The notes below the pieces were generated by a model. That model did not search any database. It worked only from the letters and a program-made list of their open reading frames with translations, and was not told the DNA's origin. Of a stretch of 64,000 nt of DNA, positions 2,058 to 10,704 are shown in pieces (position 1 is the stretch's first letter; each line of letters starts with the position of its first letter). The stretch is from Adhaeribacter terrigena. GTDB lineage: Bacteria > Bacteroidota > Bacteroidia > Cytophagales > Hymenobacteraceae. Both the position numbers and the translations under genes were made by a program. The stretch spans positions 248,001 through 312,000 of the forward strand of contig NZ_JAEHFX010000003.1 in assembly GCF_016623615.1 (NCBI RefSeq), in the 5' to 3' direction.

Positions 2058-2921
2058 TTAATTCATTCGGATCCGCCAGTCTTTCAAAGCTAGTTCCAGG
2101 TCAGGGGCGAATTGTTTGAAGGTTTCTTCTTTTTCGCCCAGTTTAATGGCTTTTTTTACCAGGTTCACTGCTTCCTGATATTCGTTATGCTGGGCAAGTA
2201 ATTGCGCTTTCAGCCAGTTATTGTAATAGTTATCGTCGATGGAGATCGATTTGTTGATCCATTGCAGGGCCAGCTCCGGCTCCTTGTTTTTCTGCAGCAG
2301 GTAATTAACTGCCTGCGCGTACAAACGCCAGTCGTTGGGTTTTGCTTCGGCCAGGGCCGCTTTAATGTTGGACAGCGCTTTCTGATCAACTTCTACTTCT
2401 ATATGGATCGGGATGCGGATCTTTTCCCAGTTCAGGTTCAGGGTGCCGGAATTGGCTTTAATATCGGTGAAAGAAAAGAAGAGCGTTTCGTGAAAGTCGT
2501 CTTGGATGGCTTGTACCGGAACGCGTAAAACGTCATCTTCGGTTTTATAATCGAAAGCACCCCACTGATTCAGCCTTTTATTGAAAATGATGGTCCAGTT
2601 ATCGTGCGATTCCGGAATGGTAAACAGGGAATACGTGCCGGCGGCCAGTTTTTCGCCCTGCACCACTACATCGTCAGAAAAGGTTACCATGGTAGCCTCG
2701 TTTGCGCCGGTCCGCCAAACCTTGCCATAAGGCACGAGTTTGCCCCAGATCTCACGGTTTTTAACGCCGGGGGTATAGTAATTAACTTTAATTTCAGTAA
2801 GGCCGATGGTTTGGCTAACCATTGCTTTGGGGCTGGCCAGCGGTAGGTTTAGTTCCTGTGCCTGAGCCATAAAAGTAAAAAAGTGAAAACAGGTGAGTAG
2901 AAGCAGAAGTTTCAGTTTCAT
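2058..2921 (-). CDS. DUF2911 domain protein with C-terminal TPR repeats
   Basis: The 287-residue protein has a signal peptide at about residues 1-21, so it is secreted to the periplasm or beyond. Residues of about 30-170 carry the DUF2911 signature, including the SQTIGLTEIKVNYYTPGVK strand and the VWRTGANEATMVTF segment. Residues of about 190-285 form two or three helix-turn-helix TPR-like units rich in Ala, Leu and Asn. The molecular function of DUF2911 is not established. It may be transcribed after the cysteine hydrolase upstream on the same strand, about 100 bases away. Start chosen at the ATG directly before the hydrophobic signal segment. Confidence 0.85.
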   Translation of the reverse strand: MKLKLLLLLTCFHFFTFMAQAQELNLPLASPKAMVSQTIGLTEIKVNYYTPGVKNREIWGKLVPYGKVWRTGANEATMVTFSDDVVVQGEKLAAGTYSLFTIPESHDNWTIIFNKRLNQWGAFDYKTEDDVLRVPVQAIQDDFHETLFFSFTDIKANSGTLNLNWEKIRIPIHIEVEVDQKALSNIKAALAEAKPNDWRLYAQAVNYLLQKNKEPELALQWINKSISIDDNYYNNWLKAQLLAQHNEYQEAVNLVKKAIKLGEKEETFKQFAPDLELALKDWRIRMN

Positions 2922-3024
2922 ATTTTAAAAAAATCAGGTATGTTCGGGTAAAACAGCTTACGCAGGAAAATGATTTCAGTAGGAAGCGAAACGCTATAAA
3001 AAAGTGTGCCAAAACCCGTGAAAA

Positions 3025-3708
3025 TTAGGATTTAAGCACTTTTTTTCTTTTTGCCGGTTGGCCATAAGGGAAATACATTTTCAGTTTCTTAGAACAGGAA
3101 ATGCCTCCAGGGTTTAATCCAAGGTCGTTTTGCGGCACGCGCGCGTTCAGTTTCTCAAAATAAGCTATCCAGAGCGGCATTATTTCATTGGTGCCGGGCG
3201 TGGCATAAGTCATCGGGAAAAGCGGAAAAATTTCCTGCTGGTTATTGGCGCTTTTGAAAATTTCGTACACCAGCTCCGAGCAATAATAAGCATCGTTGTT
3301 CAGGGCGAAAACATCGTCGTAAGGTTTTTTAAGCAGTTTTTCGCCTTCGGTTAAAGCTTTTGGCACCAGTTTCTGATATGGTTTGCGGAGGCGGCCAACG
3401 GCAACTTTGGGTTTTTTATCGGTATCGAGCTGGCGGTTCAGGAATTTTTCGAGCGGCGTATAATGCACATCCGGGCCAATGGCTTCCAGCACTAGCACTT
3501 CGCCGTTGGGCTGAATTTTTACAATGCCTACGTGCGAAAAATCAGCATTTTTATAGCCGGTCGTTACACTTTCAATGGCCTCGCACATGTCGCCGCAATC
3601 CAGATCCTGGAAAAGCAGATCGCCGTTTTTGAGTTTAAAGACCTGCTGCGCCGAAGCCGGAAAAAACGGTAGGCAAAGCAAGGTAAAAAGTAAGAAGCGG
3701 AACTGCAT
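3025..3708 (-). CDS. YiiX/YebB-like NlpC/P60-superfamily cysteine hydrolase
   Basis: The 227-residue protein has a signal peptide (cleavage near ASA-QQ, residue 20). The circularly permuted NlpC/P60 (YiiX) pattern is visible: the GDLLFQDLDCGDMCEAI segment, FSHVGIV with the likely catalytic His59, and DAYYCSELVYEIF with the likely nucleophile Cys143, preceded by the typical KPYDDVF motif. Family members hydrolyse amide or ester bonds in the envelope; peptidoglycan peptide or lipid substrates are possible. A convincing promoter lies at 3739-3771 and makes the ATG at 3708 the likely start. Confidence 0.8.
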   Translation of the reverse strand: MQFRFLLFTLLCLPFFPASAQQVFKLKNGDLLFQDLDCGDMCEAIESVTTGYKNADFSHVGIVKIQPNGEVLVLEAIGPDVHYTPLEKFLNRQLDTDKKPKVAVGRLRKPYQKLVPKALTEGEKLLKKPYDDVFALNNDAYYCSELVYEIFKSANNQQEIFPLFPMTYATPGTNEIMPLWIAYFEKLNARVPQNDLGLNPGGISCSKKLKMYFPYGQPAKRKKVLKS

Positions 3709-3738
3709 ATTGCTGGATAGATAAATTTTAGATCGCTA

Positions 3739-3770
3739 CAAAGATAAAGTTTACGCACCGCCGAAACAAA
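3739..3770 (-). promoter_or_regulatory. Bacteroidota-type promoter for the YiiX-like gene
   Basis: On the minus strand, TTTG (3767-3770) is followed by a 20-base spacer and TATCTTTG (3739-3746). This fits the TTTG-N19/21-TAnnTTTG consensus of the Bacteroidota primary sigma factor and lies about 30 bases upstream of the start codon. Confidence 0.65.
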
Positions 3771-4058
3771 ACCCCGGGTTTTTCCTTTCCAAACCATAGC
3801 GTTTTGGCCGGAAATTTTTCAGGTAAGAACGACGGAATAATGGAATTGAAAACCTAAGCACGGAAAGTAGCACCCATGAAAAACGCTATGGTTTTGGCGT
3901 CTGAAACTCAATCCGGTGCAATTTTCGCAAACCTAAACTCCTCAGCACCATTTACCTGAAGGCCGGAAGCAAGATTTTTTGGTTTAAATTTCAGACTTCC
4001 CTTAAAATAGCCGTATAAGGGGAAAAACTGATTTCCGAATTCACGAATACTGTTTGCC
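3747..4058. other. Gene-free spacer with an inverted pair of 16-bp elements
   Basis: No credible ORF lies here. It holds two oppositely written copies of the window-wide palindrome, at 3790-3805 (CAAACCATAGCGTTTT) and 3880-3895 (AAAACGCTATGGTTTT), about 75 bases apart. The rest probably carries the leader of the downstream five-gene cassette; no clear TAnnTTTG box was found on the plus strand. Confidence 0.6.
3880..3895. repeat. 16-bp iterated palindrome, strict copy
   Basis: AAAACGCTATGGTTTT matches AAAA-SS-N-TA-N-SS-TTTT exactly. An inverted near copy is at 3790-3805. The same 16 bases recur at 41915-41930. Confidence 0.75.
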
Positions 4059-4841
4059 GTGCTCGATATAAAACTGCTGAACAAACTTCAGATCCTGACA
4101 CAACCCGACGATTCTACCTGCGGGCCGACCAGCTTGCACGCCGTTTATCAATATTACCAGGATCAGATCTCGCTGGACGATGTGATAAATGAGGTTTCTT
4201 TCCTGGAAGAAGGCGGCACCCTGGCCGTATTACTGGCCTGCCACGCCCTGAAACGCGGTTATAAAGCTAAAATCTATTCTTATAACCTACACGTTTTCGA
4301 CCCGACCTGGTTTCGGGTTACGAACGATAAAATTATCCGGAACCTGGAAGAACAGCTGCTTTACAAACCCGATCCGAAACTGCAGATGGCTTCCAAAGCT
4401 TACATCGAATTTCTGAAACTGGGCGGTGAGCTCAAATGTGATGACCTGACGGCCGAATTGCTGGATAGTTATTTTTCGAAAGGCCAGCCCATTTTAACCG
4501 GATTGAGCGCTACGTATTTATACAACTGCGCCCGCGAACGGACCAACGAACGCGACGAGGCCATTTACGACGATGTTCGGGGCGAACCGTTGGGCCATTT
4601 TGTGGTGCTTTGCGGCTTTACGCCCGAACGCGACAAAGTAATTGTAGCCGATCCCTATCAGGAAAACCCGTTTTTCCGGAATAACTATTACCAGGTAAAA
4701 ACCACGCGCCTGATCAATTCCATTATGCTGGGCATGGTTACTTACGATGCCAATCTGCTCATTATCGAGCCGAAAGTTATTGGCGATGATAACAACTCAG
4801 TTTTAGAACCCGAAACGTTTACCCAATCATATTCCTCTTAA
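4059..4841 (+). CDS. C39-like papain-fold cysteine protease, first gene of amidoligase cassette
   Basis: The 260-residue protein has no signal peptide, so it is probably cytosolic. A C39-type catalytic arrangement is visible: DSTCGPTSLHAVYQYY with nucleophile Cys21, LGHFVVLCGF with His180, and VIVADPY with Asp198. Family members cleave peptides, classically after double-Gly leaders. Here no transporter is fused or adjacent, so processing or transpeptidation of a small product is more likely (inference). The start is a GTG; the frame has no ATG between the upstream stop at 4029 and the conserved core. Its stop codon abuts the ATG of the ATP-grasp gene with no spacer, implying translational coupling. 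Confidence 0.8.
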   Translation: MLDIKLLNKLQILTQPDDSTCGPTSLHAVYQYYQDQISLDDVINEVSFLEEGGTLAVLLACHALKRGYKAKIYSYNLHVFDPTWFRVTNDKIIRNLEEQLLYKPDPKLQMASKAYIEFLKLGGELKCDDLTAELLDSYFSKGQPILTGLSATYLYNCARERTNERDEAIYDDVRGEPLGHFVVLCGFTPERDKVIVADPYQENPFFRNNYYQVKTTRLINSIMLGMVTYDANLLIIEPKVIGDDNNSVLEPETFTQSYSS

Positions 4842-6317
4842 ATGCGCAAAATTGTAATCGTTAATAATCTTAAAGACTGGGATTTTAACATAGACGAAGT
4901 AGAAGTAGTAGCTGCGCAAGCATACCTTACCGAGCCCATATACACCGAAATTAAGAACGCCCGCATTTTCAACCTTTGCCGTTCGTATAAATACCAGAGT
5001 ACCGGTTATTATGTATCGCTTTTGGCCGAAGCCCGCGGCCACCGCGCCATTCCGAACGTAACCACCATACAAGATCTGAAAAGCCAGACCATTGTACGGA
5101 GCATCACCAACGAACTGGACGAACTGATCCAGAAAAGTCTGCACGATATTAAAAGCCGGGTTTTTACGCTCAGCATTTATTTCGGGCAGAACGTGGCCAA
5201 AAAATACGAGAAACTGAGCAAGCAATTGCACGATCTTTTCCAGGCGCCTTTGCTGCGGGCCGAATTCGTTTTTAATAAAGAATGGATCCTGCATAATATT
5301 TCGCCTATTCCGCTGAACGAAGTGCCCGAAAGCCACCACCGCTACCTGAAAGATTTTGCGAAAGCCTATTTTGCGCGCCACCGTTTTACGGGCGCCAAAC
5401 CAAAAACGAAATGCTACGACCTGGCCATTTTAACCAATCCGCTGGAAAGTGATCCGCCCAGCAACCGCAAAGCTATTCAGCAGTTTATTGAAGCGGGCCA
5501 GAGCCTGGGCTTTTCCTGTGAGCTCATCACCAAAGACGATTACAAACGCCTGTCGGAATTCGATGCGCTTTTCATTCGCGAAACCACTTCGGTAAACCAC
5601 CATACGTACCGTTTTGCCCGCCGCGCGCACGCCGAAGGGCTGGTGGTGATCGATGATCCGGTTTCGATCCTGCGCTGCACGAACAAGGTTTATTTAGCTG
5701 AACTGCTTTCCAAAGCGCGGGTACCCATTCCCAAAACCATGATCATTCACAAAGAAAACCGCGACCAGGTAATAACCGAACTCGGCTTGCCGGTGGTACT
5801 CAAAAGGCCGGACAGTTCTTTTTCGCAGGGCGTGGTAAAAGTAACCGACGAGGCGGGCCTGAAAAAAGAACTCGACCACATGCTCGAGCTTTCGGACCTG
5901 GTGATCGGGCAGGTTTTTATGCCTACGGATTTTGACTGGCGCGTGGGAATTCTGGATAAGCAACCGCTTTACGCCTGCAAATATTACATGGCCAAAGACC
6001 ATTGGCAGATCTATAACTGGGAGGGCAAGAAAAGTGAAGTTTCCGGCAACGCCGAGACCTTTCCGATCGGGGAGGTTCCTTTCCACGTGATGCATACGGC
6101 CCTGAAAGCGGCCAACCTGATCGGTGACGGTTTGTATGGCGTAGACCTGAAGGAAATAAACGGTCAGGCTTACGTAATTGAAGTGAACGATAACCCTAGC
6201 ATCGATCATGGGTACGAAGATCTGTTATTGAAAAAAGATCTTTACCTGAGCATCATGAAATCAATTAAAAGAAGGATCGAAATTCAAAAGAATATTCCCA
6301 ATGAGCAAGCCTCGTAA
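4842..6317 (+). CDS. RimK-like ATP-grasp ligase with RLAN-type N-terminal domain
   Basis: The protein has 491 residues. About 1-180 is an alpha/beta region resembling the RLAN domain often joined to RimK-like enzymes. About 190-475 is an ATP-grasp fold: PVVLKRPDSSFSQGV with the ATP-binding Lys321, LYGVDLKEI with Asp435, and VIEVNDNPS with Glu447 and Asn449 for Mg-ATP. ATP-grasp enzymes activate a carboxylate as acyl phosphate and join it to an amine, so this enzyme should make an amide or peptide bond; the substrates are unknown. It abuts the C39-like gene and overlaps the GCS2 gene by 17 bases, so the three are almost certainly one transcript. Confidence 0.85.
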   Translation: MRKIVIVNNLKDWDFNIDEVEVVAAQAYLTEPIYTEIKNARIFNLCRSYKYQSTGYYVSLLAEARGHRAIPNVTTIQDLKSQTIVRSITNELDELIQKSLHDIKSRVFTLSIYFGQNVAKKYEKLSKQLHDLFQAPLLRAEFVFNKEWILHNISPIPLNEVPESHHRYLKDFAKAYFARHRFTGAKPKTKCYDLAILTNPLESDPPSNRKAIQQFIEAGQSLGFSCELITKDDYKRLSEFDALFIRETTSVNHHTYRFARRAHAEGLVVIDDPVSILRCTNKVYLAELLSKARVPIPKTMIIHKENRDQVITELGLPVVLKRPDSSFSQGVVKVTDEAGLKKELDHMLELSDLVIGQVFMPTDFDWRVGILDKQPLYACKYYMAKDHWQIYNWEGKKSEVSGNAETFPIGEVPFHVMHTALKAANLIGDGLYGVDLKEINGQAYVIEVNDNPSIDHGYEDLLLKKDLYLSIMKSIKRRIEIQKNIPNEQAS

Positions 6318-7548
6318 ACCGCTGCATTTATTTGAAGCCTACGGCGTGGAAATGGAATACATGATCGTGAAAAACGACACGCTGGAAATTCTGCCCATTA
6401 CCGATAAAGTGATCTACGATGTAGCCGGCCAATTCGACTCGGATGTGGAGCTCGGGGATATGGCCTGGAGCAATGAACTGGTGCTTCACGTGATCGAATT
6501 AAAAACCAACGGCCCCGCCGTATCGCTGGAAGGTTTATCCGGAAAATTCCAGGTGCAGGTAGCACACATCAATCAGCTGCTAGAAAAATATAACGCCCGT
6601 TTACTGGGCAGCGGTGCGCACCCGTTCATGGATCCGTTCCGGGAAATGTGTTTGTGGCCGCACGATTACAACCAGATCTACGAAGCTTATAATAAGATCT
6701 TCGATTGCCGCGGACACGGCTGGGCTAATTTGCAAAGCACGCATCTGAACCTGCCGTTTGCCAACGACGACGAATTCGGTAAGCTGCACGCCGCCATCCG
6801 GGTTTTACTACCCCTTATTCCGGCTCTGAGTGCATCTTCGCCTATTCTGGATAACCGGGTTTCGGGGTTTGCCGATACGCGCCTGGAAGTGTACCAGAGC
6901 AACCAGAAACAGATCCCGAGCATTGCCGGTAAAGTTATTCCGGAACGGGTTTTCAGCAAGGCAGAATACGAACAGAAGATCTTTAAAAGAATCTATGCCG
7001 ATATTGCGCCTTACGACGAAGACGAAATTCTGCGCGACCAGTTCCTCAATTCCCGCGGCGCCATCGCGCGTTTCGACCGCGGTGCGATCGAGATCCGGAT
7101 CATCGATATACAGGAATGCCCGCAGGCCGATATTGCCGTTCTGAACGCCGTGGTAGAGACGCTGAAAAAACTGGTTGCTGAAAAATGGACTTCGCTGGAG
7201 GAACAGAAAAAGTGGCACGAAAACGACCTGGCCGAAATTTTCTGGAACGTGGTAAAGCACGGGCAACAAGCTGAAATAAGAAACGCCGGTTATCTGCAGT
7301 TATTCGGGTATGACAAAGCCGGAAGCTGCACGGCTTCGGAATTATGGCAACACCTGTACGATTCCGTTTTAGTTTCCACCATTACTGATGAAAACACGAA
7401 AGCCGCTTTAACTTTTATCCTCCAAAACGATACCCTTTCGGCCCGAATTGTAAAAGCTTTAAAGGGAAATGCCTCGGCGGAAAATATTAAAAACGTGTAT
7501 GCGCAATTAACCGATTGCCTGAAAAACGGGAAGCAGTTTTTAGCTTAA
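6301..7548 (+). CDS. Glutamate-cysteine ligase family 2 (GCS2) carboxylate-amine ligase
   Basis: The 415-residue protein matches the GCS2 family (glutamine-synthetase-like fold) over its length. GVEMEYMIV (Glu17, Glu19) fits the Mg-ATP site, followed by NELVLHVIELKT, LLGSGAHPF, STHLNLPF, and AIEIRIIDIQECP near the end of the core. The family forms gamma-glutamyl or related amide bonds at the expense of ATP. Some members make gamma-glutamylcysteine, but many are of unknown specificity, so gshA should not be assigned. Start at 6301 lies inside the preceding gene (17-base overlap). With the ATP-grasp protein it gives the cassette two distinct amide-forming enzymes. Confidence 0.85.
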   Translation: MSKPRKPLHLFEAYGVEMEYMIVKNDTLEILPITDKVIYDVAGQFDSDVELGDMAWSNELVLHVIELKTNGPAVSLEGLSGKFQVQVAHINQLLEKYNARLLGSGAHPFMDPFREMCLWPHDYNQIYEAYNKIFDCRGHGWANLQSTHLNLPFANDDEFGKLHAAIRVLLPLIPALSASSPILDNRVSGFADTRLEVYQSNQKQIPSIAGKVIPERVFSKAEYEQKIFKRIYADIAPYDEDEILRDQFLNSRGAIARFDRGAIEIRIIDIQECPQADIAVLNAVVETLKKLVAEKWTSLEEQKKWHENDLAEIFWNVVKHGQQAEIRNAGYLQLFGYDKAGSCTASELWQHLYDSVLVSTITDENTKAALTFILQNDTLSARIVKALKGNASAENIKNVYAQLTDCLKNGKQFLA

Positions 7549-7563
7549 AAAGGATAGCGTTTT
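7548..7563. repeat. 16-bp iterated palindrome, strict copy
   Basis: AAAAGGATAGCGTTTT begins on the last base of the GCS2 stop codon and precedes the terminator at 7582-7617. Confidence 0.75.
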
Positions 7564-7581
7564 GAATAAAGGAAAATCTTT

Positions 7582-7617
7582 AAACCTCACCGGTGTTTCA
7601 AAGCCGGTGAGGTTTTT
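7582..7617 (+). terminator. Intrinsic terminator inside the amidoligase cassette
   Basis: AAACCTCACCGG (7582-7593) pairs perfectly with 7604-7615 around a 10-base loop and is followed by a short T run. It lies between the GCS2 gene and the amidohydrolase-like gene, so the last two genes may be expressed at a lower level or from their own promoter. Confidence 0.75.
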
Positions 7618-7638
7618 CTACTTCAAAAATTAATTGCA

Positions 7639-8334
7639 ATGCAAAAGATCCTGATCACCTGCGAGCACGGCGGACGCGAAATTCCGGAAAAATACGGACC
7701 TTATTTTCAGGCGCACCAGCCACTGCTGGAAACGCACCGCGGCTGGGATATTGGAGCACTGGAACTTTATAAAAAACTGGTGGCCGCGGGCGCTGATGCT
7801 TCCTTTTTCTCGGAAACCAGCCGCCTGCTGGTAGAGTTAAACCGGTCGCTGCATCACCCCAATTTGTTCTCGGACATTACCCGCCAGACGGCCGAAGTAG
7901 AGCGGGAGGCCATTCTGGAAGCGCATTATCATCCGTACCGGAAGCAGGTTGAAAACGCCATTCAGACTTTTATTTCCCAAAAACATAGCGTTTTGCATTT
8001 GTCGGTGCATTCGTTTACGCCGGAGCTGAACGGAGAGATCCGAAACGCCGATATTGGCCTGCTTTACGACCCACAACGGAACACAGAAAAGGAATTTTGT
8101 GCCCGCTGGAAACAGGAATTTGAGAAGTTGGATACGGGTTTAAAAGTCCGCTTTAATTATCCGTACCGCGGCACAGCCGATGGCTTTACTACGCATTTGC
8201 GCAAGCTGTTTCCGGATGAAAAATACGGCGGAATTGAGCTGGAAGTAAATCAGAAATTTCCGCAAGGCGATAAAAAAAATTGGGAAAAAGTACAGCAAAT
8301 TATCATGCAAAGTTTTTATGCAGCCGTAAAATAA
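7639..8334 (+). CDS. N-formylglutamate amidohydrolase family protein
   Basis: The 231-residue protein shows the family pattern: ILITCEHGGREIP at the N-terminus (metal-binding Glu/His), LLVELNRSLHHP, LSVHSFTPEL with a His, YPYRGTADGFTTHLR, and a C-terminal GIELEVNQKF. Classical members are zinc-dependent and hydrolyse N-formyl-L-glutamate in histidine degradation. There are no hut genes nearby, so cleavage of an acyl-glutamate-like or gamma-glutamyl product of the neighbouring ligases is more plausible (inference). It follows the GCS2 gene by 90 bases, with a terminator between them. A near copy of the 16-bp palindrome lies inside the gene at 7979-7994. Confidence 0.8.
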   Translation: MQKILITCEHGGREIPEKYGPYFQAHQPLLETHRGWDIGALELYKKLVAAGADASFFSETSRLLVELNRSLHHPNLFSDITRQTAEVEREAILEAHYHPYRKQVENAIQTFISQKHSVLHLSVHSFTPELNGEIRNADIGLLYDPQRNTEKEFCARWKQEFEKLDTGLKVRFNYPYRGTADGFTTHLRKLFPDEKYGGIELEVNQKFPQGDKKNWEKVQQIIMQSFYAAVK

Positions 8335-8402
8335 TATTTACGAATTAGAATGCTTTATCACAATTCAGGATTCTTAATTCTTAAGTCCTAATTAAAGTTG
8401 CC

Positions 8403-9287
8403 ATGTGCCGATTTGTAGCCTACATCGGGAAGCCGATCATGATGTATGATCTGCTTTTCAAGCCGAAGAACTCGCTTATAAACCAAAGCGTAAAAGCGCA
8501 CGAAGCCGAAGAACCTTTGAACGGCGACGGGTTTGGTATAGGTTGGTATACGCCGGAAGCCAATGATATGCCAGGGCTTTTTGTTTCGGTACGACCTGCC
8601 TGGAACGACCGGAATTTAAAATACATCGCGCCCAAAATCGTTTCCGATTGCATGTTTGCGCACGTGCGCGCCGCTTCCATTTCACCCGTAAACGAACTGA
8701 ATTGTCACCCGTTTCATTACGGAAATTACCTGTTCATGCATAATGGCGACATTGAAGGGTTTCCTAAAATAAAGCGGGAAATGGTGCGGCACCTGCCCGA
8801 AAATATTTACGCCAACATAGAAGGACTTACCGATTCGGAGCATTTGTTCGCTTTATTTCTGCACCAGCTGGAAAAACAACGTTCCAAAGACCTGCCCACT
8901 AAAATTGCGAACGCGCTGGAAGATGCCATTGTAGATGTGGAAGAAATTAAAGCGCGTTTGAAAGTAAAAGAACCCAGTTATATAAATGTCTGCGTAACCG
9001 ACGGCGATACCATTGTGGCGGTAAGGTATGTTTCTGATCTCAGCCTGGAGGCTCCTACGTTGTATTATTCAGAAGGCGCGGCTTATACCTGTGAAAACGG
9101 TATCTGCCGGATGAAAAAAAGTAAAAACGATTTCGATAAAGCGGTACTGATCGTGTCGGAAAAATTAACGCGTTACCGTTCCGACTGGCACGAAATTCCG
9201 GTAAATCACATGGTTACGGTTAACCGGAAACTGGAAGTGAACGTTTCGGTTATTCAACGCACGCTGAATACTGCCGCCGGTTTTTAA
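8403..9287 (+). CDS. Class II glutamine amidotransferase (YafJ/EgtC-like)
   Basis: The 294-residue protein begins Met-Cys-Arg-Phe, so Cys2 becomes the N-terminal nucleophile after Met removal. NGDGFGIGWY, FAHVRAAS, NCHPFHYGNYLFMHNGDIEGF and LTDSEHLFALF are the usual class II (Ntn) amidotransferase landmarks. No synthetase domain is fused. Stand-alone relatives include EgtC, which removes a gamma-glutamyl group from a thiol intermediate, and YafJ of unclear role. Beside two amide ligases it could remove a gamma-glutamyl protecting group (inference). It ends 7 bases from a convergent gene. Confidence 0.85.
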   Translation: MCRFVAYIGKPIMMYDLLFKPKNSLINQSVKAHEAEEPLNGDGFGIGWYTPEANDMPGLFVSVRPAWNDRNLKYIAPKIVSDCMFAHVRAASISPVNELNCHPFHYGNYLFMHNGDIEGFPKIKREMVRHLPENIYANIEGLTDSEHLFALFLHQLEKQRSKDLPTKIANALEDAIVDVEEIKARLKVKEPSYINVCVTDGDTIVAVRYVSDLSLEAPTLYYSEGAAYTCENGICRMKKSKNDFDKAVLIVSEKLTRYRSDWHEIPVNHMVTVNRKLEVNVSVIQRTLNTAAGF

Positions 9288-9294
9288 AGCATAA

Positions 9295-10665
9295 TTAATG
9301 GTTATTAACCTGGAGAAATTCAGCTGCCTTATTTTCTTTTTTTCTTTTCTTTTGCCAGAAATAGTCGGCGCAGAAAACGGTGGCAAAAACGAGTAAAAAC
9401 CACACCGGTTCCTTAAAACGGGCACAACCAATTGGGCCGGGTGCGGCAGCCATGTAACCCATAAGCAGTACTGCAAAAATTCTGAGAGCGAGGTTCTGTT
9501 TCCGGAGGAAAAACGCCCAGAAAGCAAATGCCAGCGCCGTAATTACATTCGCGGCAAAGATCAAAGCCATATAAATGGTAAGGCCCAACGGAATTTTGGA
9601 GAAATAATTGAAAATGCCGGAAAATCCGTGTTCACGCACTTCGTTAAAGAATCCGAATTCGGTTTTGGTTTGCAAAGGCGGCAGAAAATTAACCAAATCG
9701 TAACGCCCCGGATCAAGAAAGAAATTGATCGCGCCGCGGAAATGCAGCCATGCATAAAGCCCGATATTTGCTTTGATAATGGCGTAACTTTCCTTTTCAA
9801 TATGCTTTAAACGTGCTTCCAGGTTGGCATAATCGGCATCGGTCTGGTTAATTTTTTTTACGATGGCTTTGGCCGAATCGATTCCGTGCAGGTGCGTGAG
9901 CAAAGTTTGGGTGTTGTAATCGGAGAGGTTGTAGGTTTTTATGGAAGTATAATGGAAATAACCTGTAACCTGCTGGTTGTAAAAACACAATGCTGCAATG
10001 GTAAACGGCATAATAAGGCTTTGCAGCAGCAGTATTTTCTGGCGGTTTTTCCAGACCAGATAAGCCATAAAAAGCAGGTTTGGCAGCCAGAAATAAACCA
10101 GCACGGGTTTGGTTAATACCGAGAAAGCCAGCAAAATATTATAAAGCAGCATCCACCGCGGGTTCGGGGTTTGCAGGTATTTTACCAGGCAGAAAAATGC
10201 CCAGAATAAACCGGTTTCAAACACCAGCTCGCTCATCACCATGTTGGTATAAACCAAACGGGTAGGGAATAGGAGCATGGCAAAAAAGAGAATTCCGTGC
10301 AGGTAATTTTTCGGGAGTTTTACATCTTTCATCAGCCAGACTAAACCGGTAAAATTGATGAAAGCCAGCGCATTCTGGAAAAGCAAAATGGCAAAATGCG
10401 AAGAGGAAACCTGCTGGATCAGATAGATGAGATACCCGTAAACCGGCGTCCGGAGCGTCCACATCTGGAGGATAAAGGGCTGTTGCCATTTCCAGGAATA
10501 GAGGCTGCCGTGGTTTTTAATGTTTTCGGCCTGGTATAAATATTCCTGCGAGTCGGTGAGATACAGGCTTTTGTAATGCAGCGCCAAACCAAAAAACAGG
10601 ATCTGCAAAACCAGGGCGCCCAGCAGAACAGGATAATGTTGCTTTAGAAAATTACGGAATTCCAT
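9295..10665 (-). CDS. Polytopic membrane glycosyltransferase-like protein
   Basis: About 456 residues and ten or more hydrophobic spans. Near the N-terminus is YLTDSQEYLYQAENI, resembling the acidic first periplasmic loop of GT-C (ArnT/PMT-type) enzymes that use polyprenyl-phosphate sugars. Family assignment rests on topology and this motif only. An in-frame ATG lies 12 codons upstream at 10701, but I prefer the internal ATG at 10665: the extra segment is Cys-rich and reaches almost to the terminator at 10705. The C-terminus ends in a Lys-rich cytosolic tail. The donor and acceptor are unknown. Confidence 0.6.
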   Translation of the reverse strand: MEFRNFLKQHYPVLLGALVLQILFFGLALHYKSLYLTDSQEYLYQAENIKNHGSLYSWKWQQPFILQMWTLRTPVYGYLIYLIQQVSSSHFAILLFQNALAFINFTGLVWLMKDVKLPKNYLHGILFFAMLLFPTRLVYTNMVMSELVFETGLFWAFFCLVKYLQTPNPRWMLLYNILLAFSVLTKPVLVYFWLPNLLFMAYLVWKNRQKILLLQSLIMPFTIAALCFYNQQVTGYFHYTSIKTYNLSDYNTQTLLTHLHGIDSAKAIVKKINQTDADYANLEARLKHIEKESYAIIKANIGLYAWLHFRGAINFFLDPGRYDLVNFLPPLQTKTEFGFFNEVREHGFSGIFNYFSKIPLGLTIYMALIFAANVITALAFAFWAFFLRKQNLALRIFAVLLMGYMAAAPGPIGCARFKEPVWFLLVFATVFCADYFWQKKRKKENKAAEFLQVNNH

Positions 10666-10704
10666 GCCCGAAAATAAACAATATCCGCAAGTAAAGGGCA
10701 AAAT

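Follow-up and report, generated by a model that had tools for sequence, protein, structure and literature searches.

A conserved four-gene cassette of two ligases and two hydrolases in Adhaeribacter terrigena, possibly the gamma-glutamyl version of a capped-peptide pathway

Introduction

What could a bacterium make with two amide-forming ligases and two hydrolases encoded side by side? The question is raised by a stretch of 64,000 nucleotides from Adhaeribacter terrigena (contig NZ_JAEHFX010000003.1, positions 248,001 to 312,000; this whole stretch is called the window), in which five genes follow one another at 4059-9287 and had been described, in an earlier note made from the sequence alone, as one amidoligase cassette. 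Our survey of related loci gives a different outline, since only the first four genes recur together: a C39-like protein, an RLAN-RimK ligase, a GCS2-family ligase and an FGase-family protein. With somewhat less than even confidence, we lean toward reading these four as a pathway in the cytosol that makes a small gamma-glutamyl peptide without the ribosome, laid out as in glutathione metabolism. A literature search found no paper on the four-gene set or its product, although the amidoligase survey of Iyer et al. 2009 may already list the combination.

A four-gene unit kept together across phyla

The five open reading frames lie on the + strand where the earlier note had placed them, and Pfam matches, all above cut-off, agree with the five families it had proposed (annotation of the surroundings covered 2058-10701 of the window):

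4059..4841, + strand: C39-like papain-fold protein (C39_2 34.2 bits, C39 27.8 bits)
4842..6317, + strand: RLAN domain and RimK-type ATP-grasp ligase (RLAN 169.4 bits, RimK 36.5 bits)
6301..7548, + strand: GCS2-family carboxylate-amine ligase of a cassette-specific subfamily (GCS2 103.1 bits)
7582..7615, + strand: terminator-like hairpin in the GCS2-FGase gap (13 pairs, T-rich tail)
7639..8334, + strand: protein of the FGase (N-formylglutamate amidohydrolase) family (FGase 90.2 bits)
8403..9287, + strand: EgtC-like class II amidotransferase, a neighbour outside the conserved cassette (GATase_4 58.0 bits)

The stop of the C39 gene meets the RLAN start (4841/4842), and the RLAN-RimK and GCS2 genes overlap by 17 bases (6301-6317), both as previously seen.

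Loci were recruited by RLAN similarity from a sample of the phylum (35 of 296 genomes), from close relatives (21 of 59, the cassette being accessory) and from named genomes (of 127 loci confirmed there, 80 were retained), and removal of near-identical loci left 120 distinct RLAN loci, the window included. RLAN-RimK is accompanied by GCS2 at 96 of them, and all four genes stand side by side at 57. The other contexts are RLAN with GCS2 and FGase (17), C39 with RLAN and GCS2 (16), RLAN with GCS2 (6) and, without GCS2, RLAN with FGase (1, locus L158), RLAN with C39 (1) and RLAN alone (22); several contigs end inside the cassette and were scored as missing genes. The nearest named relative is Adhaeribacter soli, whose RLAN-RimK is 89% identical. 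Carriers of the cassette belong to Bacteroidota, Ignavibacteriota, Fibrobacterota, Legionella, one Desulfobulbaceae genome and one Leptospiraceae genome. By NCBI phylum, the 96 GCS2-type rows divide into Bacteroidota 39, Fibrobacterota 13, Ignavibacteriota 7, Pseudomonadota 4 (all Legionella), Thermodesulfobacteriota 1, Spirochaetota 1 and 31 not named.

The four-gene order is therefore found across phyla, as the proposal of a cassette had implied, and because it is kept together in six of them it is probably under selection. The genes mostly abut, with median gaps of 1.5, -4 and -4 bases, and the distance matrices of the four proteins correlate at r 0.84-0.91 over the 57 four-gene loci, versus at most 0.304 in permutations. 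No other neighbour cluster of at least 80 residues occurs in more than 20 of the 120 loci, and no regulator or transporter family is widely recurrent among them. The claim that no leader peptide lies nearby agrees with the survey as far as it reached: within 600 bases on either side of the 57 four-gene loci, no open reading frame of 20-100 residues is common beyond close genera, a search that variable precursors would escape.

GCS2 and GNAT alternate beside RLAN-RimK

RLAN is also present in 56 of 299 Pseudomonadota genomes. From the list of these we chose 40 and added four of 14 plasmid hits, a set of 44 loci that brings the total to 164. A GNAT domain, fused to RLAN-RimK or near it (profile matches with E up to 1e-5, from -3 to +4.5 kb), is found at none of the 96 GCS2 loci versus 56 of the 68 loci without GCS2, the remaining 12 having neither partner. 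Since 55 of the 56 positive loci had themselves served to build the profile, the informative figure is 0 of 96, where a diverged GNAT could escape detection; Pfam confirmed the domain in all eight loci checked. In the Pseudomonadota and plasmid set, RLAN-RimK stands beside a GNAT-C39 fusion at 28 of 44 loci and beside a lone GNAT at seven (Pfam on three fusions and one lone GNAT), and longer RLAN proteins of about 650 residues, from Bacteroidota and two candidate phyla, carry the GNAT domain themselves (three by Pfam, 20 by profile). GCS2 and FGase were detected at none of these 44 loci, a figure that does not stand for the phylum as a whole, since one Legionella genome with the GCS2 cassette (G350) is among the 16 RLAN genomes that were not read; its cassette is counted with the window-like loci. 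According to an excerpt of PMC10318531, which cites Iyer et al. 2009, C39-like domains of the DUF3335 kind are often fused to GNAT domains, and the latter might serve as peptide ligases.

The two hydrolases keep different company: C39 tracks RLAN, being adjacent at 73 of 96 GCS2 loci and present in the 28 GNAT-C39 fusions, and FGase tracks GCS2, being adjacent at 74 of 96 GCS2 loci versus one of the 68 others.

On a quick tree of 163 RLAN-RimK rows (L086 was left out for length) the GCS2/GNAT label changes twice, versus a shuffled mean of 44.8 changes, and 18 GNAT-fused rows nest among the 96 GCS2 rows with supports of 92-93. In a careful tree of 47 rows a single change is seen in 0% of bootstrap trees; under the approximately unbiased (AU) test, one clade remains acceptable (p 0.29). 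Two exchanges rather than one are thus likely.

GNAT enzymes add an acyl group to an amine, and GCS2 enzymes add a gamma-glutamyl group to an amine. Since the two replace each other beside the same ligase, we suggest that both make a capped amino acid that RLAN-RimK extends. It is possible, though we would stop short of calling it probable, that a large and unexplored family of capped-peptide pathways is built around RLAN-RimK ligases, with a cap at the N-terminus set either by GNAT (acyl) or by GCS2 (gamma-glutamyl, with FGase as hydrolase), and that the two modules have been swapped in evolution, probably on more than one occasion; the window would then hold the gamma-glutamyl version, making an undescribed glutathione-like metabolite. 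The likeness between the cassette and the GNAT-C39 (DUF3335) systems of Pseudomonadota or the GNAT-RLAN-RimK fusions lies in their homologous RLAN-RimK core and, often, a C39-fold partner, whereas GNAT takes the place of both GCS2 and FGase. If the scheme proposed here is right, bacteria would have, in addition to glutathione, bacillithiol and N-acetylglutaminylglutamine amide (NAGGN), a further class of small peptides with a cap.

As a separate observation, proteins with DUF2817 and DUF155 domains lie near the GNAT-C39 and RLAN-RimK genes at nine and seven of the 44 Pseudomonadota and plasmid loci (L239, L240, L242 and L244 among them; Pfam on L239).

The two ligases

The GCS2 gene is the sole PF04107 match in this genome, and among the 59 relatives the cassette type is present in all 21 genomes that have RLAN and in no other. 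A different, YbdK-like GCS2 is found in 17 of the 59, and four genomes (G049, G300, G301, G319) have both kinds. A comparison of the cassette proteins (n=32) with the YbdK-like ones (n=17), at positions fixed to at least 95% in each set, gives 21 that agree, among them G15, E17, E19, E264, R266 and D269, and 15 that differ, for example N58, K68, W141, S146, N150 and D277. This pattern marks a separate subfamily and suggests that the ligase core is functional and the substrate pocket a different one. Against nine listed NCBIfam models of GshA, YbdK and EgtA the protein scores far under cut-off (best 62.7 of 176.4). A plain YbdK-like gamma-glutamylcysteine synthetase, which the earlier note had named as part of what would undo its proposal, is rejected at the level of sequence by these scores, by the distribution and by the 15 differently fixed positions.

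The cassette counts among the RLAN-type ATP-grasp amidoligase systems, for RLAN is fused to RimK and a C39-fold partner is present (our working definition asks for a C39-fold partner, a GNAT or both). Residues 192-481 of the RLAN-RimK structural model align best with LysX/ArgX (Z 27.8, root-mean-square deviation 2.2-2.3 over 262-263 residues), followed by RimK (Z 25.6-26.6) and GshB (Z 22.1); the RLAN half, searched as part of the full-length model (predicted TM score 0.60), has no match in the structural list. All NCBIfam scores fall under cut-off: 70.1 of 275.6 for LysX, 74.5 of 143.4 for the rimK family and 40.7 of 408 bits for the glutathione synthetase model NF009110. K321, E447 and N449, which we take as candidate catalytic residues, are invariant in 32 sequences.

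The two hydrolases

In the C39 protein, C21, H180 and D198 are invariant in 26 of 26 sequences and presumably form the catalytic triad. Its model (mean predicted local distance difference test score 87.2) aligns with the PCAT1 peptidase domain at Z 17.6, with phytochelatin synthase Alr0975 at Z 17.3 (163 residues, root-mean-square deviation 2.6) and with PeiR at Z 16.9. The FGase protein, which matches the Pfam family and has no NCBIfam family listed, aligns over nearly its whole length with 2odf (Atu2144; 9.1e-35), and its E9, H10, H120 and H124, to which we ascribe a metal role, are invariant in 27 sequences. In one Ignavibacteriales cassette (L126, 12705-13967) a stretch at the C-terminal end of the FGase open reading frame gives HD-domain matches that are weak and under cut-off. 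The conserved unit is still best described as two ligases and two hydrolases, as the earlier note had seen it in part.

A possible pathway and the points against it

In the route that we favour, GCS2 would couple glutamate, through its gamma-carboxyl, to the amine group of an acceptor, forming a gamma-glutamyl cap, and RLAN-RimK would extend this intermediate at its carboxyl end by an amino acid, probably glutamate or one related to it. C39 would then cut or transfer at the bond made by RimK, much as phytochelatin synthase acts on the last residue of glutathione, and FGase would hydrolyse the amide on the side of the glutamyl cap. C39 is placed on the RLAN-RimK bond because it tracks RLAN, and FGase on the cap side because it tracks GCS2. 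The alternation of GNAT and GCS2, together with these two associations, allows a concrete reaction scheme to be drawn from what would otherwise be a mere enumeration of families. We infer all reactions, substrates and the order of the steps; what is observed is the four genes, their order, their correlated divergence, the invariant candidate active-site residues, the GCS2/GNAT alternation and the pairing of hydrolases with ligases. Two published cases serve as precedents: phytochelatin synthase deglycinates glutathione, as stated in an excerpt of PMC10318531, and Ngg acetylates a glutamine and joins a second one, as an excerpt of PMC8070244 describes. The cytosolic glutamyl-peptide route with trimming enzymes, proposed beforehand, thus keeps its two ligases, two hydrolases and conserved order, but loses the class II amidotransferase as a member of the unit, and its thiol or redox part is weakened by the BshC and egt genes described below.

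Several observations weigh against this pathway. The C39 model fits the leader peptidase PCAT1 as well as it fits phytochelatin synthase, in a near tie of three with PeiR, and its top Foldseek match is PeiR, a pseudomurein endoisopeptidase. None of the 20 GNAT-fused loci has C39 beside it, the tree requires 18 changes in the presence of C39, and no copy was found anywhere in five genomes whose cassette has no adjacent C39 (G226, G198, G343, G351, G352). FGase is missing next to 22 of the 96 GCS2 loci (some contigs end there; in three of these loci, from Fibrobacter, it lies about 7.4 kb away). In A. terrigena itself the hairpin at 7582-7615 may separate FGase from the first three genes: its fold z is -3.94 (window and A. 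soli, which has a similar hairpin), and it stands at a junction for which relatives show a median gap of -4 bases. Lastly, BshC occurs in all 35 RLAN genomes of the phylum sample, which leaves the need for a further glutathione-like compound unexplained.

Alternative explanations and known systems

Could the enzymes modify a protein rather than build a metabolite? RimK glutamylates ribosomal protein S6, LysX and ArgX act on LysW, and all of these work on protein termini. Their structures are the closest to the ATP-grasp half of our ligase (Z 27.8 for LysX/ArgX, 25.6-26.6 for RimK), and two hydrolases beside two ligases would suit pairs of writers and erasers, so that RLAN-RimK and GCS2 might attach, and C39 and FGase remove, glutamyl tags on a protein or carrier. 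RLAN-RimK has, however, an extra N-terminal RLAN domain, and no LysW- or S6-type partner was found adjacent; nor does any carrier gene recur next to the cassette, either among clusters of at least 80 residues at the 120 loci or among shorter open reading frames within 600 bases, an unlinked target being possible. To our knowledge, moreover, GCS2 enzymes act on small molecules, which counts against tagging. We regard it as unlikely, if worth keeping in view. Another candidate product would be a thiol or metal-binding gamma-Glu-Cys peptide, analogous to glutathione or phytochelatin. The succession of GCS2 and an ATP-grasp ligase parallels that of gamma-glutamylcysteine synthetase and GshB, phytochelatin synthase is among the structures with which the C39 model aligns, and glutathione synthesis and turnover likewise combine a gamma-glutamyl-type ligase, an ATP-grasp ligase and, for taking off the final residue, a papain-fold enzyme that C39 resembles. 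The cassette departs from that system in the RLAN-RimK kind of its ATP-grasp enzyme, its extra FGase and its separate GCS2 subfamily, set apart from the YbdK-like kind by the 15 fixed positions. BshC, the only member of the Bsh set searched, is present in 291 of 296 genomes of the phylum sample, and this genome has, elsewhere, BshC (bacillithiol) and EgtD-family and egtB-like genes (ergothioneine). Because of these BshC and EgtD-family genes a role as sole thiol is unlikely for the product, and the sole-thiol pathway that we had considered is weakened by the near-universal BshC. A gamma-Glu-Cys peptide is, in our judgement, quite unlikely.

An osmolyte, that is, a compatible-solute di- or tripeptide like NAGGN but with a gamma-glutamyl cap, would also agree with the layout, since the Ngg pathway, in an excerpt of PMC8070244, consists of N-acetylation and the joining of two amino acids, and GCS2 here stands in the place of a GNAT. 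This resemblance between Ngg/AsnO and the cassette, in N-capping and dipeptide ligation, is one of layout and not of direct comparison with RLAN-RimK, and the NAGGN pathway as excerpted there has no GCS2 or FGase. Around the 120 loci, as noted above, no regulator or transporter family is widely recurrent, which speaks against an osmolyte. TIGR03103, which we take to be the Ngg-type model, is absent from the 19 NCBIfam families listed for RLAN-RimK, and an osmolyte seems an improbable product. The idea of a ribosomal, graspetide-like pathway with C39 as leader peptidase draws on C39 peptidases that cleave leaders (an excerpt of PMC10318531) and on certain ATP-grasp enzymes that cyclise peptides. 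It is opposed by the absence of any 20-100-residue open reading frame common beyond close genera within 600 bases of the 57 loci, whose genes mostly abut, and we hold it to be very improbable.

The fifth gene and the surroundings of the cassette

The claim that all five genes form one cassette was not confirmed by the survey. The EgtC-like gene adjoins the cassette only in the window genome (G000) and in A. soli (G296), and in the phylum sample it occurs in four of the 35 RLAN genomes (G000, G049, G146, G186) versus about 4.5 expected (38 of 296 overall), so a conserved five-gene unit is rejected, and with it the place of the class II amidotransferase in the unit. The picture within the window's order is more mixed: all five genomes found with the gene (G000, G296, G049, G146, G186) are RLAN genomes, though it is unlinked in three and the co-occurrence rests on two lineages; among the 59 relatives it is in three (G000, G296, G049), all with RLAN, and next to the cassette only in the first two. 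We place it outside the conserved unit, with a verdict less firm than for the other genes, and a local functional link is possible. A GCS2 gene in the neighbourhood of an EgtC-like gene is a feature shared with the ergothioneine enzymes EgtA and EgtC, but the latter lies outside the conserved unit and the egtB- and egtD-like genes are on another contig. The protein scores 195.8 bits against the NCBIfam EgtC model (TIGR03442), under its cut-off of 218.65, and its identity as ergothioneine EgtC is not supported: PF10017, presumably the EgtD family, is found in 46 of the 59 relatives (45 over cut-off) versus three with the EgtC-like gene, one of which (G049) has no PF10017.

On contig C2 of the same genome (L279, 6320-9723), egtB-like, egtD-family (Pfam PF10017) and pyridoxal phosphate (PLP) aminotransferase-like genes lie in a row, the first and last of them assigned by reading the open reading frames. 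Upstream of the cassette and divergent from it, the window encodes a YiiX-type C92 protein with a permuted papain-like fold (3025-3708, - strand), with a homologue at the same place in A. soli, and a DUF2911 protein with a weak C-terminal match to tetratricopeptide repeats (2058-2921, - strand). A dispersed, over-represented motif runs through the region: CATAGCGTTTTG, with at most one mismatch, has nine copies in the window versus 0.55 expected (3795-3806, 3879-3890, 7553-7564, 7984-7995 and five more), one of them within the FGase gene, and genome-wide CATAGCGTTTTGG is found 23 times without mismatch versus not once for the reversed pattern.

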